A DNA stretch of 64,000 nucleotides, taken from NCBI GenBank assembly GCA_020850695.1, contig JADZEF010000238.1, forward strand, positions 1 through 64,000, given 5' to 3'. The position numbers and the translations under genes were made by a program. Shown piece by piece: positions 47,545 through 55,419 of this stretch. Below the pieces are notes generated by a model that saw nothing but the letters and a program-made list of their open reading frames with translations, searched no databases and was not told the DNA's origin. Source of the stretch: Planctomycetaceae bacterium (GTDB taxonomy: Bacteria > Planctomycetota > Planctomycetia > Planctomycetales > Planctomycetaceae). The number at the start of each line of letters is the position of its first letter. Position 1 is the first letter of the stretch.

Positions 47545-48606
47545 TCAAGCATTCCGACGCACGACGATCTTCTGCTGCGGCGTCGCTTCGATGCGGCCGA
47601 TGATGGTTCCCGTCACGCCGCGAGCCTGGAGCGCGGCGAGCAACGGCGTCGCGGCCTCGGGCGCGACGGCCGCCAGCAATCCGCCCGATGTCTGCGCATC
47701 GCACAGCAGCAGTTGCTCATGCTTCGTGATGTCGTCCGCGTAGCTCGTCCAGTCGGCCAGAAATCGGTGATTGGCGTGCGTTCCCCCCGGCGCGACACCC
47801 GCATGAACGTACTCGCGTGCGGCGGCGAGGATGGGAACGCGATCGAAGTCGACAATCGCCCCCACGTTGCTCGCCGCCACCATGTTTCGCAGATGCCCGA
47901 GCAGCCCGAAGCCGGTCACGTCGGTCAGCGCGTGCACTCCGCCGCACTGCGCGAATTCTTCCCCCGCGACGCGATTGAGAGTGGACATGATGCCGATCGC
48001 CTCGCCGATCGCTCCGAGCTTGTCCTCGCCGTTCTTGGCGGCCGTGGTGATGATTCCGAGTCCGAGTGACTTGGTGAGAATCAGCACGTCGCCGGGGCGG
48101 GCCTTATCGTTCGCCAGCACACGATCCGGGTGGATCGTGCCGACGACGGCCAGCCCGAAGATCGGCTCTTCCGACTTGATCGTGTGACCGCCGACGATGG
48201 CGATTCCGGCTTCGTTCGCCTTGTCGGCCGCCCCGCGCAGGATCTCGCCCAGCACCGCCGGCGGAAGCAGCGCATCGGGAAAACCGACAATGCTCAGCGC
48301 TGCGATCGGCTTCCCTCCCATGGCATAGACGTCGCTCAACGCATTCGCGGCCGCGACCGCTCCAAAATCGGAGGGACGGTCGACGATCGGCGTGAAGAAG
48401 TCGGTCGTCAGCACCAGGGCGAGATCGTCCGACAGCTTGTAGACCGCCGCATCGTCGGCCGTCGCATTCCCGACGAGCACGTTGGGATCGGTGATCTTCG
48501 GAAGCGATCCGAGGAGCGAAAGGAGATACCCCGGCGGCTGCTTGGCGGCGCACCCGGCGCGCTTGGCGAGTTGGGTCAGCCGGATCGGTTCTGAGACATC
48601 TGTCAT
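47545..48606 (-). CDS. selD: Selenide, water dikinase
   Basis: A 353-residue enzyme making selenophosphate from selenide and ATP for selenocysteine and selenouridine. The redox-active site reads AGCAAK (standard Cys form, not Sec), followed by the ATP-binding PURM/AIRS fold: DDAAVYKL, VLTTDFFTPIVD, ANALSDVYAMGG and IVGGHTIKSEEP. C-terminal DVTGFGLLGHL and LLCDAQTSGGLLAA are intact. No selA, selB or selC is in the window. The ATG at 48606 is preferred. It follows an intergenic region rich in repeats. Confidence 0.94.
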   Translation of the reverse strand: MTDVSEPIRLTQLAKRAGCAAKQPPGYLLSLLGSLPKITDPNVLVGNATADDAAVYKLSDDLALVLTTDFFTPIVDRPSDFGAVAAANALSDVYAMGGKPIAALSIVGFPDALLPPAVLGEILRGAADKANEAGIAIVGGHTIKSEEPIFGLAVVGTIHPDRVLANDKARPGDVLILTKSLGLGIITTAAKNGEDKLGAIGEAIGIMSTLNRVAGEEFAQCGGVHALTDVTGFGLLGHLRNMVAASNVGAIVDFDRVPILAAAREYVHAGVAPGGTHANHRFLADWTSYADDITKHEQLLLCDAQTSGGLLAAVAPEAATPLLAALQARGVTGTIIGRIEATPQQKIVVRRNA

Positions 48607-48968
48607 GGGTGCGGCTCTGAGGTTCAAGCAGGACGCGTGACGTAGAGGATGCAGGATTTCCACGACGGAGTCGAGAGTGCGGCTCTTGAAGCACCTCGCT
48701 GGGTCCATCCTTTATTTGGCGGGGCGTCACCTGTTCATGGCAATCAGCCCGCAGATCCGATTCACAGGGAGTTTCACCACGGAGTCGAGAGTGCGGCGAA
48801 GGCCTCATTCTCGACTCCGTGGTGAAAAAATGCTCGTGAGATCGATAGAGGCCGAGAGACGTGATCAGACGCACCGCCGCCAATTGAAAGGATGCACCCA
48901 CTTCGTTGTGCTGCTGCTCCTGATACCCGGAGCTGATGGTCGCTCGCTGCATCGGCTTCAGCCGCGAT
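48607..48968. other. Intergenic region with inverted repeats upstream of selD
   Basis: About 500 nt between selD and murG hold no supported gene. A half-repeat TTTCCACGACGGAGTCGAGAGTGCGG lies at 48657-48686. A perfect inverted repeat lies at 48772-48827, and the 119-bp family C repeat at 48969-49087. Confidence 0.5.
48772..48827. repeat. Perfect 19-bp inverted repeat
   Basis: TTTCACCACGGAGTCGAGA and TCTCGACTCCGTGGTGAAA are perfect inverted copies with an 18-nt loop. The left arm resembles a half-copy at 48657-48686. Structure is REP-like; no T-run follows to suggest a terminator. Confidence 0.88.
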
Positions 48969-49110: not shown

Positions 49111-50265
49111 TCAACGAGCGATCTGTTCCAGCAGATCCGCGACCTCTGTGGCGGCCCCGGGTCGCGAGAGGGACCGCATCGCCTCGGCGGCGGCCTTCCT
49201 TCGAGGTTCATCCCGCAAAAGTGTTCGCAGTGCCGCGGTGAATTCGGCCAGTGTCTGCGACGTCTCGCCGCGCTCCAGCACCATCACGGCGCCCCCTCCG
49301 CGCCCATAGGCTTCGGCATTGGCCCGCTGGTGATCGTCGGCCGCATGCGGATAGGGAACCAGGACTGCCGGCAGACCGGCACAGGCCATCTCGGCCAGCG
49401 TCGTCGCTCCCGCGCGGCCGACCACCAGATCGGCCTGTCGCAGCTCCTCGGGCATGTCATCAAGGAACGGACGGACGTCGACATCGAGCCCGGCGGCAGG
49501 GTAGCGGCCGCGCACCGCGTCTGCCTCGTCCCCCGCCTGGTGCACGATCCGCCATCCGGTCAGCGAGGCGTGCGATGCGCCGGCAAACGCCGTCATGAGA
49601 GCGTTCAAACTCCGCGATCCGAGGCTGCCGCCAAGCACAAGCAGCGTCGGTCGGCGGGACTCGGCAGGATTCTCACGACGCTTCCCACTCGCCATGGCCG
49701 CGATCTCCCGCCGCACCGGATTGCCGGTGGTCCGGCACCGCGGGCGATACCGCGGAGCGAGCCGTTCGATCGTCTCGTCAAACGAGACGCAGATGGTCTC
49801 GGCCCAGCGCGACAGCCAGCGGGTGGCGCGGCCGGGAATGATGTTCTGCTCGATCAGCACGACAGGAATCCGCTGCCGGCTTGCGGCCCAGACGATGGGA
49901 CCGCTTGCGAAACCCCCGAGCCCGATGACCGCGGCGGGGCGGCGGTCGCGGAGGAGGCGACATGCGATGCGAAGGGCGCGTCCCATTCGCCAGGCGAATC
50001 GCCACGGGGCGCGTTTCAGAGTCGCCAGGGACTCGGTGGGAAGGGGCGCCGTCTCGAACCCGCTCTGTGCGAGAATCCGCTGATCGATGGGACGCTCGGA
50101 ACCGACAAAGAGTATTCCGGTCGCCGCCCGTCGACGACGCAGTTCCTCCGCCACCGCGATTCCCGGAAACAGGTGCCCGCCGGTACCACCGCCGGCGAAC
50201 AGGAAGAGGGGCTTGCCGGGGGCCGGAGTTGCCGCCGCATCATGCGACCGCTCGACCGCGATCAC
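49111..50265 (-). CDS. murG: UDP-N-acetylglucosamine--N-acetylmuramyl-pentapeptide transferase
   Basis: A 384-residue GT28 glycosyltransferase that adds GlcNAc to lipid I at the inner membrane face. The N-terminal domain has FLFAGGGTGGHLFPGIAVAEEL, and the acceptor region GFASGPIVWAA. The donor-binding C-terminal domain has LVLGGSLGSRSLN, VVGRAGATTLAEMACAGLPAVLVPYPHAADDHQ, the last including the conserved Glu and Asp/His. Domains are complete. It starts at a GTG that overlaps the small gene upstream by 4 nt. It is separated from murC-murB-ddl by about 7.5 kb. Confidence 0.95.
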   Translation of the reverse strand: MIAVERSHDAAATPAPGKPLFLFAGGGTGGHLFPGIAVAEELRRRRAATGILFVGSERPIDQRILAQSGFETAPLPTESLATLKRAPWRFAWRMGRALRIACRLLRDRRPAAVIGLGGFASGPIVWAASRQRIPVVLIEQNIIPGRATRWLSRWAETICVSFDETIERLAPRYRPRCRTTGNPVRREIAAMASGKRRENPAESRRPTLLVLGGSLGSRSLNALMTAFAGASHASLTGWRIVHQAGDEADAVRGRYPAAGLDVDVRPFLDDMPEELRQADLVVGRAGATTLAEMACAGLPAVLVPYPHAADDHQRANAEAYGRGGGAVMVLERGETSQTLAEFTAALRTLLRDEPRRKAAAEAMRSLSRPGAATEVADLLEQIAR

Positions 50266-51681: not shown

Positions 51682-52181
51682 GAAAGGCTCACTGGAGGGA
51701 GCAGAGGACGGGAGGCAATGCACGGGCGGCCAGCCATGGGGCGGGTCGTCGGCAAAACCTGGCTCAGACTTGAGGGAAATTCGGAGAAAATCGAAGGGGG
51801 CGGGAGAATACCGATGCGTGAGGACTGCTGCAAGAGCGTTTACAAGAGGCGGCCGAACGCGCCCAAATCGTTGTCACGAAAGGGTTCGCGAGATGAAATG
51901 GCGGTGGGAATTCGATGGCGAAAGTGCGGCCAAACGGCAGACGGGCCTTCCGATCACAGTAACGCTCAGAGCAATGGGACATCGGAGACCGCCGCGGCGG
52001 CAGCGCCACGATCGATGAATCTCTCGCGGAGCACCCACGGCAGCGCCCACATCACTCGCGCCACGGGATCGCGCCACGGGATCGCGACTCGACCCGGTCG
52101 AGCATGCCGAATCGCCGTCCGTGGACTACAGTCAGAACGCCCGGCTGGCCGGGCCGTGTTCCATCGCCCGGACTTCGTGCC
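51682..52181. other. Divergent intergenic region
   Basis: About 500 nt between the TPR lipoprotein and the DHOD/8-TM fusion, carrying two promoters by position. A 13-bp tandem duplication (GCGCCACGGGATC at 52058 and 52071) lies near the fusion gene. No other gene or RNA seen. Confidence 0.4.
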
Positions 52182-54128
52182 ATGCCCGACTGGTCATACC
52201 AGACACTGTTCCGCCCGATCCTGTTCCGCCTCCCGGTCGGCGCCAGCCGCGACCTGGCGCTCGGAGCCATGGGATTGCTCGCCCGGCTTCCCTTGGGAAC
52301 AGCCGTCATTCGCTTCATGGGGCACATGGCCCCCGACCCCCGGCTAAGTCACACCGCCGGAGAAATCGAATTCGCCGGGCGCGTCGGTCTCGGTGCGTCC
52401 GTCGATCCCGAACTCCGCGCTCCCGCCGCCCTCTCTCGCATGGGCGTGGCCTTCCTCGAAGTCGGCCCGCTCTCCCCCTCTCCGCCGGCCCGCTCGGCTC
52501 CCATCGGGCGCATCCTGGAGCGCGAGCGGCTGACGTTCGATTCGCCGCGCGACGTTCTCGACGCAACACGCGCCGCGCGAGCCCTTCGAGAGATCAGGCA
52601 CATCCCGATCTTCGTGCGAGTCGACTTGTCCGGAACTCCGTCAGACGCGGATCGAGATCGGCTTCTGTCGCTGCAATGCAACTCCTCGTCCGATTTATCG
52701 ACACGGGCGGCTGCGTATCTCCTGACGCCCGACCGCTGGGATTCGCTGCCCATGATGTTGTCGCGGCTTCGCGAGGAGACGCCGGAACCTTTGCGAAAAC
52801 CCATGCTGGCGGTGTTGAAGGCCGATGAGGCAACGCGTGCCGCCCCCATCCTTCAGAGTTGCTTCGAACAGCAACTCCTCGCCGGAGTGCTGGTCGAAGG
52901 CGAGACGGTCGACGACGCGGGACACCGTGTGCTGGGGGCGGAGTGCTTTCCGGCGCTGATCCCCGCGGTTCGAGCATTGCGGGGCGTGGTACCCGACGGA
53001 GCGATCCTGGCGGCCTCTGGCGGCGTCCATGAACCGCAGCACGCTCTGGAACTGCTGGACGCGGGGGCGAACCTCGTCTCGATCGATTCGGGAATGATCT
53101 TCTCGGGTCCAGGTCTGCCGAAGCGGATCAACGAAGCCATGTTCCATCGCCAGTCGGAGCGGGAACCGCCGCCTGCCAAGACCCCGGAGCGGCAAACCAA
53201 CGTTCGCCCCACGCAACAGTCGTGGTTCTGGACGGCGCTGATCGGGGCCGCCATGTTCCTCGGCGGCATCATGGCAATGATCATCGCCACGACGCGCGTC
53301 GTCATGCCGTACGACGAGGCGATGGCGGGGCTCACCCGCGAACAGATCGTCGAGATCAACGACCGCCTGCTCCACTTCATGACGCACGACCGCGTCACGC
53401 TCTCAGGCACGATGCTGGCAGTCGGAATCCTGTACCTCGTGCTGTCATGGTACGGCTCGCGGCGGGGAATGCACTGGGCTCACGTGGCCATCATCGCGTC
53501 GTCGCTCGCCGGCTTCACGAGCTTCTTTCTGTTCCTCGGCTTCGGCTACTTCGACCCGTTCCACGCCTTCGTGACGGCGGTGATGCTGCAGCCGGTGCTG
53601 CTGGCCATGCACAGCGACCTGCCGGAATACCGCCATCCCGTCGCCCCCGAGCTGACGAACGACCGGGCGTGGCGGCTGAGCCAGTGGGGGCAGTTGATCT
53701 TCATCGGGCACGGCGCGGTGCTGATCGTCGCGGGGTGCGTGATTTCGAGCGTCGGGATCTCGCACGTCTTCGTGCATGAAGACCTGGAGTTCATGCACAC
53801 GACGGCCGAGCATCTGTTCGACGCCCACCCACGGCTGGTGCCGCTCGTCGCGCACGATAGGGCGACGTTTGGCGGGATGCTGATCTCGTGCGGGGTGTGC
53901 GTGTTCCTGTCATCGCTGTGGGGCTTCCGCCGCGGCAACGCGTGGCTATGGTGGGCTCTGGTGACAGCGGGGACCATCGCGTACGTCGCGACGATCTGCG
54001 TCCATTGGCACGTCGGCTACACCAGCCTGATGCATCTGCTTCCGGCCTACGCGGGGCTCGCGATGATCGCCGTCGGCGGGGCACTGTCGTACGGACATCT
54101 CTGCCCCGCACCCGGGCTGCGGCTTTGA
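52182..54128 (+). CDS. Dihydroorotate-dehydrogenase-like domain fused to an 8-TM duplicated module
   Basis: A 648-residue fusion. Residues 1-330 resemble class 2 dihydroorotate dehydrogenase: the N-terminal helices (YQTLFRPILFRLP) precede a TIM-barrel-like part that ends with ASGGVHEPQHALELLDAGANLVSIDSGMIFSGPGL, close to the DHOD FMN-phosphate site. The substrate-binding strands are poorly conserved (FVRVDL in place of the Lys-containing motif), so activity is doubtful. Residues 347-643 form eight transmembrane helices in two copies of one unit, each with an HDRxTxxG motif (His402 and His558) and a xRRGxxW turn. The last residues (APGLRL) and stop derive from a family D repeat. Confidence 0.75.
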   Translation: MPDWSYQTLFRPILFRLPVGASRDLALGAMGLLARLPLGTAVIRFMGHMAPDPRLSHTAGEIEFAGRVGLGASVDPELRAPAALSRMGVAFLEVGPLSPSPPARSAPIGRILERERLTFDSPRDVLDATRAARALREIRHIPIFVRVDLSGTPSDADRDRLLSLQCNSSSDLSTRAAAYLLTPDRWDSLPMMLSRLREETPEPLRKPMLAVLKADEATRAAPILQSCFEQQLLAGVLVEGETVDDAGHRVLGAECFPALIPAVRALRGVVPDGAILAASGGVHEPQHALELLDAGANLVSIDSGMIFSGPGLPKRINEAMFHRQSEREPPPAKTPERQTNVRPTQQSWFWTALIGAAMFLGGIMAMIIATTRVVMPYDEAMAGLTREQIVEINDRLLHFMTHDRVTLSGTMLAVGILYLVLSWYGSRRGMHWAHVAIIASSLAGFTSFFLFLGFGYFDPFHAFVTAVMLQPVLLAMHSDLPEYRHPVAPELTNDRAWRLSQWGQLIFIGHGAVLIVAGCVISSVGISHVFVHEDLEFMHTTAEHLFDAHPRLVPLVAHDRATFGGMLISCGVCVFLSSLWGFRRGNAWLWWALVTAGTIAYVATICVHWHVGYTSLMHLLPAYAGLAMIAVGGALSYGHLCPAPGLRL

Positions 54129-54277: not shown

Positions 54278-55204
54278 TCACGCCGGCGGATGCAACTCGG
54301 GCCGCAGCCAGATGAAGCTCTTGCCGAGACGGCCGCCGTAGTTGCCTGCCGAGATCCGCACCAGGCCCGGCGTCTCGACCGACGCCTCAATCGCCGCCTG
54401 CGTCGCCTTCGAGACGGCTTCCAGGTCGTGCCCGTTGATGATGATCTCCATGATCGAATTCACCCCCGCCGGGAGCTGCGACGCCGCGGCCGGGTTGTCG
54501 CGGAGCGTCGGGCAGAAGGGGACGTTCGTGCTGGCGAACAGGAACTTGTAGCGGCTCCCCGCCTTCGACCCGCTCGCCGCAATCCCGCCGGGGAACGGCA
54601 TGATCGTCCCCCGCAACTTCTGGATCGCCCGTACCCCGCGCTCGGCCGCCTCCAGCGACGCGTCCACGCTCTCGGCGAAGAACCAGAGGTTCCCCCCCAT
54701 GATGCCGTCGCGGAATCCGAATCGCCGGTCGATCGTGAACTCGCCCCCCATCGTCGGCAGCACCCACACCTTCCGCCCGTGCCGCACCGCCCGCTGCTGA
54801 AACCCGTCCCCGAAAAAGCTGACCTTCCGCCCGAGCTTAAAGTACTTCTCGGTATCGAGCAGATTGAAGCACGCAGCCGTCGGACAGGTGAGGACGTTCT
54901 GGCTCAACCGGGCCAGCAGCGCCTTCTCCATCGCGGGTTCGCGGTCCTTCCGGAACCGCGGGATGTGGAACTGGCAGATGGCCCCCGGCCGGCCGTCGGG
55001 CGTGACGAACGACTCATCGCCGCCGGGACCGACGTAGCAATCGACCCCCGCCTCGCAGTCGCACATGATGGTGCTCGACGCGTGCCCGGTCGCCGCCTGG
55101 CACGCATGATCGAGCCACGTCCGGTCGCGTGCGGTGATCAGCACCTCCGCATAGATGCTGCGAAAAGCCTCGGCATAAGTGTCATCAACAGCGGCGCGCG
55201 GCAC
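54278..55204 (-). CDS. ftr: Formylmethanofuran--tetrahydromethanopterin formyltransferase
   Basis: A 308-residue enzyme of C1 transfer with methanofuran and tetrahydromethanopterin, found in methanogens, methylotrophs and planctomycetes. The N-terminus VDDTYAEAF and the following ITARDRTWLDHACQAATGHASSTIMCDCEAGVD match the family opening, with FTIDRRFGFRDGIMGGNLWFF and SRYKFLFASTNVPFCPTL further on. The C-terminal LVRISAGNYGGRLGK is typical. Length matches relatives if translation starts at the GTG at 55204; an earlier GTG at 55240 lies in a REP palindrome. A 5-formyl-THF cyclo-ligase gene is next upstream on the same strand. Confidence 0.92.
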   Translation of the reverse strand: MPRAAVDDTYAEAFRSIYAEVLITARDRTWLDHACQAATGHASSTIMCDCEAGVDCYVGPGGDESFVTPDGRPGAICQFHIPRFRKDREPAMEKALLARLSQNVLTCPTAACFNLLDTEKYFKLGRKVSFFGDGFQQRAVRHGRKVWVLPTMGGEFTIDRRFGFRDGIMGGNLWFFAESVDASLEAAERGVRAIQKLRGTIMPFPGGIAASGSKAGSRYKFLFASTNVPFCPTLRDNPAAASQLPAGVNSIMEIIINGHDLEAVSKATQAAIEASVETPGLVRISAGNYGGRLGKSFIWLRPELHPPA

Positions 55205-55226
55205 GGCGAATAGTCCTGACTTCGAA

Positions 55227-55419
55227 CGTAGCACGGGCACTCCTGCCCGTGCGAAAAAGCCTTCAAGAAGCGATTGGCTCGACTCAGTCTGAGTGCACAG
55301 GATATCCGCAGGTTATCCTGGCTCACTGAAACTGAGCCGATGCAAGCCGAGACCTGATTTCAAAGAGCATCGACGAACGTCGCGAAGCGTTTCACACGGG
55401 CAGGAGTGCCCGTGCTACG
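55227..55419. repeat. REPIN of family A, next to ftr
   Basis: Inverted palindromes at 55227-55256 (CGTAGCACGGGCACTCCTGCCCGTGCGAAAA) and 55390-55419 (TTTCACACGGGCAGGAGTGCCCGTGCTACG) are separated by about 135 nt. The loop base differs from other family A copies (CTC/GAG with CC/GG centre). It occupies most of the gap between ftr and the cyclo-ligase gene. Confidence 0.9.

Follow-up and report, generated by a model that had tools for sequence, protein, structure and literature searches.

A dihydroorotate-dehydrogenase-like domain that has lost its catalytic residues, fused to a duplicated eight-helix membrane module

The window analysed here, i.e., a stretch of 64,000 nucleotides from contig JADZEF010000238.1 of a Planctomycetaceae genome (GCA_020850695.1), carries on its forward strand an open reading frame at 52182-54128 that encodes 648 residues plus stop, with M1 at 52182. 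The first-pass annotation had described its product as a dihydroorotate dehydrogenase (DHOD)-like half fused to a duplicated membrane module. This observation is confirmed, and coordinates, frame and motifs were given correctly: His402 lies in HDRVTLSG, His558 in HDRATFGG, and both S-x-x-G-x-RRG-x-x-W turns (SWYGSRRGMHW and SLWGFRRGNAW) are found where they had been placed. The interpretation added to it, a flavin-linked membrane redox or sensor protein, is as a whole partly supported.

A second in-frame ATG is located upstream at 52104. Position 52182 is the likely start rather than this codon, since PDWxY forms the N-terminal opening in all 74 aligned family members and the annotated NCBI gene of Cytobacillus spongiae starts at this motif as well. 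All features are listed in Table 1. Promoter, terminator and Rfam scans gave no matches. Directly downstream and convergent, the window encodes a formylmethanofuran--tetrahydromethanopterin N-formyltransferase (54281-55240, minus strand; TIGR03119, 328.9 bits vs. 292.6), that is, a methanogen-type C1-transfer gene inside a planctomycete-group genome. Selenide, water dikinase SelD and MurG (NCBIfam) are found at 47545-48708 and 49111-50265, respectively, both on the minus strand.

Table 1. Features of the fusion gene and its product (positions within the window)
Feature	Position	Strand	Basis
Whole gene, probable pseudo-DHOD / eight-helix membrane fusion	52182..54128	+	start backed by PDWxY in 74/74
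Residues 1-50, class 2 DHOD-type N-terminal helices; invariant P2 D3 W4 Y6, G47 H48	52182..52331	+	alignment, model, median pairwise identity 56%
Residues 51-270, TIM-barrel core; catalytic and most FMN residues lost	52332..52991	+	median pairwise identity 26%; relaxed but purifying dN/dS
Residues 271-325, FMN-phosphate-loop end (SGGVHEP, SGMIFSGPGLPKRINEA)	52992..53156	+	median identity 54.5%
Residues 326-346, variable linker	53157..53219	+	alignment, identity
Residues 347-480, membrane unit 1 (TM1-TM4)	53220..53621	+	two models, hhalign
Residues 492-640, membrane unit 2 (TM5-TM8)	53655..54101	+	two models, hhalign
Y377 D378, after TM1	53310..53315	+	74/74
H402-D403-R404, outer end of TM2	53385..53393	+	74/74
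D458-x-x-H461, outer end of TM4	53553..53564	+	both residues 74/74
D534, after TM5	53781..53783	+	74/74
H558-D559-R560, outer end of TM6	53853..53861	+	74/74
S615-x-x-H618, outer end of TM8	54024..54035	+	H618 73/74 (one gap); column 615: D 45/74, S 20, N 8

A scan of genome contigs yielded 306 confirmed relatives, and the 80 best ones were retained. Among these best 80, 73 loci encode the whole fusion, and the set is made up of Bacillota (41), Planctomycetota (29), Acidobacteriota (5), Verrucomicrobiota (3), Armatimonadota (1) and Melainabacteria (1), i.e., the fusion recurs in other genomes of several phyla. The 74-row alignment used throughout consists of the window protein and the 73 whole-fusion loci, with three class 2 PyrDs as reference. 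Omitted from it were loci beginning at the edge of a contig (L036, L055, L065, as well as L085, which only offers a 57-residue frame), one with its N-terminal part in another frame (L082), one for which the N terminus was not found (L104) and one that has no DHOD half (L077).

The occurrence of the family is patchy. It was found in 8/59 related genomes (a ninth matching genome, G051, holds a canonical PyrD only), in 7/392 genomes of the same phylum (weak match in G170 uncounted), in 27/148 Paenibacillaceae genomes (weak matches in G495 and G542 uncounted) and in 5/247 Acidobacteriota genomes (weak matches in G1098 and G1106 uncounted), while a phylum-wide search of Cyanobacteriota returned only the already known carrier (1/292). 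One member resides on a plasmid of Cytobacillus spongiae (L174:4989-6761; WP_233811857.1, NZ_CP089998.1), where NCBI names it dihydroorotate dehydrogenase, which is likely a misannotation. Across the 80 loci, no gene neighbour is widely shared; the largest cluster, ABC-ATPase-like, is present at 11/80 loci with variable distance and strand. We thus rejected gene neighbourhood as a guide to function. Finally, our literature search, which covered few subscription papers, gave no account of such a fusion, in line with the earlier statement that it had not been described.

With regard to the N-terminal half, descent from class 2 DHODs is clear. NCBIfam class 2 models match the window protein with E-values from 1.2e-22 to 7e-10, far under their cut-offs (80.6 bits vs. 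267; 39.2 vs. 200), and its PF01180 score is 24.1 bits for a cut-off of 27. Some other family members exceed the latter cut-off in the genome searches, and several class 2 NCBIfam models are matched by all 74 members. When the profile of the 74 members is used, class 2 DHODs of the PDB are found with an E-value of 1.2e-35, and hhalign against the three class 2 PyrDs aligns residues 5-324 over 317 columns (100% probability, E 1.4e-40). The AlphaFold2 model of the full protein (mean pLDDT 92.7, pTM 0.92) superimposes with VIA Z 34.6 on the DHODs of H. pylori (6b8s_B, rmsd 2.5) and E. coli (1f76_A, rmsd 2.4). Given these profile E-values and the Z-score of the fold, residues 1-325 and class 2 DHOD share common descent and do not resemble each other by chance, and the class 2 assignment made at first reading stands.

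The residues by which a class 2 DHOD works are absent from this half. In the alignment with the PyrDs, the Asn of the catalytic motif NxSSPNTP and the FMN lysines of GxDK and VKxAP are each found in 0/74 members, and the TNT columns are kept in 1, 2 and 1 of 74 members. Searching for the patterns anywhere within the first 345 residues gives the same picture: NxSSPN, NxSCPN, NRxGFN and GxDK are each missing from all 74 members, K.AP is present in 6/74 and TNT in 1/74, while all five class 2 patterns, NxSSPN among them, are present in each of the three PyrDs. In class 2 DHODs, the lost residues hold the isoalloxazine and ribityl parts of FMN and do the catalysis. Since they are gone in 74/74 members and kept in 3/3 class 2 PyrDs, the DHOD half is, judged by its sequence, very probably a catalytically dead pseudoenzyme. 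On the other hand, the FMN-phosphate loops are retained (second Gly of GG in 69/74, Gly of SG and GP each in 74/74), such that FMN could still be bound in part.

These observations refine what the first-pass annotation had reported. Its C-terminal FMN-phosphate-type motifs are real, and its remark on poor conservation at the substrate strands was right but too mild, given that catalytic residues are lost outright. Regarding its proposed check of the FMN ligands, the phosphate loops are kept and both lysines are not, and the term 'flavin-linked' finds no backing in residues for the isoalloxazine and ribityl parts or for catalysis. The complete PyrD that it suggested to look for elsewhere in the genome exists, namely a separate enzyme of class 1B type (G000:C107; NF005574, 400.9 bits vs. 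269; TIGR01037, 353.1 vs. 270). A strong PF01180 match besides the family gene was present in 9/9 and 20/20 of the genomes searched.

Conservation varies strongly along the protein. Over 2701 pairs, median identity is 56% for the N-terminal helices, 26% for the barrel, 54.5% for the phosphate end and 49% for the membrane half, while the same DHOD parts are about level in canonical class 2 PyrDs (43-45, 43-60 and 39-68%, from three sequences only). This mosaic is also visible in the substitution rates of 15 close pairs. For the membrane half, median dN/dS is about 0.04 (15/15 pairs; one pair 0.19), and for the barrel about 0.2 (range 0.09-0.36; calculable for 14/15 pairs); two pairs that include the window protein are too distant for a reliable dS. 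Every part of the fusion is under purifying selection, and the barrel changes at roughly five times the rate of the membrane half. A relative from Mycobacterium branderi has lost about 140 barrel residues, which puts its first HDR at residue 255 vs. a median of 397, and retains PDWTY, a remnant of the phosphate end and both HDR motifs. Its gene (L175:5551-7068), with the barrel mostly deleted, lies on plasmid pJCM12687, adjoins an IS110 transposase and is labelled hypothetical protein. Given the identity mosaic, the dN/dS values and this deletion, the barrel is what the protein can dispense with, and the N-terminal helices and the membrane module are what it retains.

For the membrane half, eight transmembrane helices (residues 347-640) are predicted both in the full model and in a model of this half alone (pLDDT 92.0, pTM 0.90). 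The proposed tandem duplication of a four-helix unit is borne out: the two units are homologous (unit vs. unit, hhalign E 8.5e-21, 122 columns, 21% identity), and both models display the expected symmetry, while a control comparison of the membrane half with nine CtaA proteins yielded P 0.23. Lys and Arg are richer in the cytosolic loops and Asp and Glu in the outer loops of the predicted topology, and from this charge balance we place the DHOD half in the cytosol and the HDR motifs on the outer side. Residues that never vary in the 74/74 members are Y377, D378, H402, D403, R404, W432, D458, H461, W497, Q504, D534, H558, D559, R560, W588 and W590, followed by H608, Y613 and H618 with 73/74 (one gap). 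The pattern of conserved columns thus gives matching sites in each unit, i.e., D, HDR and [D/S/N]xxH, and the symmetric histidines noticed at first reading are invariant in both HDR motifs.

No Pfam family is matched by the membrane half; its weak Pfam matches (DUF4064, SPW, Ost5 and others) are under the cut-offs or scattered over few members. PDB sequence searches with three membrane profiles and the single sequence of L007 gave no credible match at E-values up to 10, where RNA polymerase entries (E 0.06 or worse) and few others (E 1.7 or worse) were taken as chance. The hhalign comparison with the nine CtaA sequences is not significant, and the matches found for the window protein do not include PF02628. 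In structure space, a Foldseek search of the membrane model against the PDB gave nothing under E 0.16, while VIA returned chain O of 8xqw, the Chlamydomonas Ycf2-FtsHi motor, reportedly described by Liang 2024. Here, Z is 16.1 (rmsd 3.6, 238/303 residues, 12% identity), above the level of about 13 below which VIA scores of helical proteins call for caution, and the next chain reaches only Z 6.0. Chain O is absent from the first 50 Foldseek rows, and its subunit name was not found in passages of PMC7768757 and PMC12485368 or in the other literature searched.

The two halves are separable. The membrane half is also encoded alone, without the DHOD half. In a tree with 53 fused rows (the window protein and 52 of the 80 loci, near copies dropped), eight such membrane-only homologues, found in Planctomycetota and Acidobacteriota, cluster together (support 100/100). 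The genes next to these membrane-only forms vary; three of the forms have isoaspartyl-peptidase-like genes nearby, as judged by eye. L119, which is fused and comes from a different planctomycete family, adjoins the membrane-only group. This placement may reflect an ancestral fusion whose DHOD half was lost later, or else two separate fusions. In a DHOD tree with the three PyrDs, the family stands apart from PyrD, but L119 groups with the PyrDs through a very long branch. A frame change interrupts the G027 gene between its two halves, and G542 holds a decayed remnant only. A Paenibacillaceae locus (L151:5144-7104, G582) encodes the halves in two frames that overlap at ATGTGA, which could reflect either a frameshift or two coupled genes; covalent joining of the halves could be unneeded. 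A further homologue of 146 residues (L147:1004-1444) consists of a single four-helix unit, has no HDR histidine and is weakly DUF4345-like. It is possibly close to the ancestor of the four-helix repeat.

Considering these data, we favour, at a probability of roughly 0.6, a membrane protein with a functional eight-helix core and an outward cofactor or ligand site, in which the dead DHOD caps the cytosolic side, for docking or regulation. The membrane half appears to carry the real function of the fusion, and it is conservation that points to the outward-facing site as the functional centre. The N terminus and the DHOD-like domain would be cytosolic, and each unit would present Asp, His-Asp-Arg and [Asp, Ser or Asn]-x-x-His at the outward-facing side of the membrane. 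Together, these residues would most likely make up a symmetric site that binds a metal or haem cofactor or else a small ligand. The four-histidine layout of the models is compatible with, but no proof of, a cofactor site. The DHOD-like half would no longer oxidise dihydroorotate, its conserved remains being the N-terminal helices and the phosphate-loop end. Its role would most likely be that of the cap, perhaps still sensing a phosphate-bearing ligand.

If the outward site held one or two haems, the protein could be a membrane haem protein built like CtaA/COX15, i.e., from two four-helix bundles. In the haem A synthase CtaA/COX15, each of TM2, TM4, TM6 and TM8 carries a single His at its outer end, and these positions are taken by H402, H461, H558 and H618, which are invariant or nearly so; CtaA homologues also show their HR and H motifs in similar order. 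We nevertheless consider this unlikely given the hhalign P-value and the missing PF02628 match reported above, as well as the invariant Asp and Arg beside each His, which to our knowledge are no CtaA feature. Unlikely, too, is a flavin-linked membrane oxidoreductase, whose barrel would bind FMN and pass electrons to a membrane cofactor or quinone. The kept phosphate loops, the class 2 fold predicted with high confidence and the strong conservation of the N-terminal helices, which form the quinone entry in class 2 DHODs, agree with such an enzyme, but both FMN lysines as well as NxSSPN and NRxGFN are missing from all members, and the part expected to bind the flavin is the fastest-changing one and mostly lost in M. 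branderi.

The structural match to 8xqw could point to a membrane scaffold or adaptor that resembles chain O of the chloroplast import motor in fold and may serve a membrane AAA machine such as FtsH. Here, the high Z-score and its distance to the next chain are opposed by 12% identity, by the lack of any sequence match from three profiles and one sequence and by the Foldseek result; besides, a shared fold shows no function, and invariant charged outer residues suggest more than scaffolding, which renders this improbable. A long shot is the idea that the eight-helix module is related to a membrane subunit of the Ycf2-FtsHi motor of chloroplasts; in bacteria, the dead DHOD would then have become the cytosolic piece through which it docks to an AAA machine of the membrane. 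That the protein is a second working dihydroorotate dehydrogenase, as the record of the Cytobacillus member and the class 2 homology would have it, is hardly credible at all, considering the lost catalytic residues, the scores far below curated cut-offs and the other PyrD of the carriers.

The family occurs in six or more bacterial phyla and is strongly constrained by purifying selection, and one NCBI record at least calls it dihydroorotate dehydrogenase. Since the catalytic residues are lost and the function seemingly lies in the membrane half, databases that use this name are probably wrong, and a mislabelled family can mislead metabolic reconstruction. Furthermore, the fusion illustrates clearly how an enzyme can be pared down to the parts that face the membrane, with a drifting barrel between helices and phosphate loops that persist. 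The two invariant outward His-Asp-Arg sites, together with the strong structural neighbour in the chloroplast import motor, define a definite target for mutation.

Compared to known systems, the protein shares with class 2 PyrD (TIGR01036, PF01180) the predicted fold, the N-terminal helices and the FMN-phosphate loops. Unlike PyrD, it has no catalytic base motif, FMN lysines or substrate asparagines, is joined to eight membrane helices and scores under all curated cut-offs. DUF4345 (PF14248) is weakly similar to the remote single-unit homologue L147 (E 2e-4, 21.8 bits vs. 26.5), which itself has no HDR histidine, and the window protein shows no match to it at E-values up to 10. With chain O of 8xqw, the membrane half shares its predicted fold over 238 residues, but differs by its low sequence identity and from the eukaryotic plastid setting of that protein. 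CtaA/COX15 (PF02628) shows the same layout of two four-helix units with histidines at the outer ends of TM2, TM4, TM6 and TM8; where it has HR and H motifs, the present family instead carries HDR and [D/S/N]xxH and is fused to a DHOD that is very probably dead.
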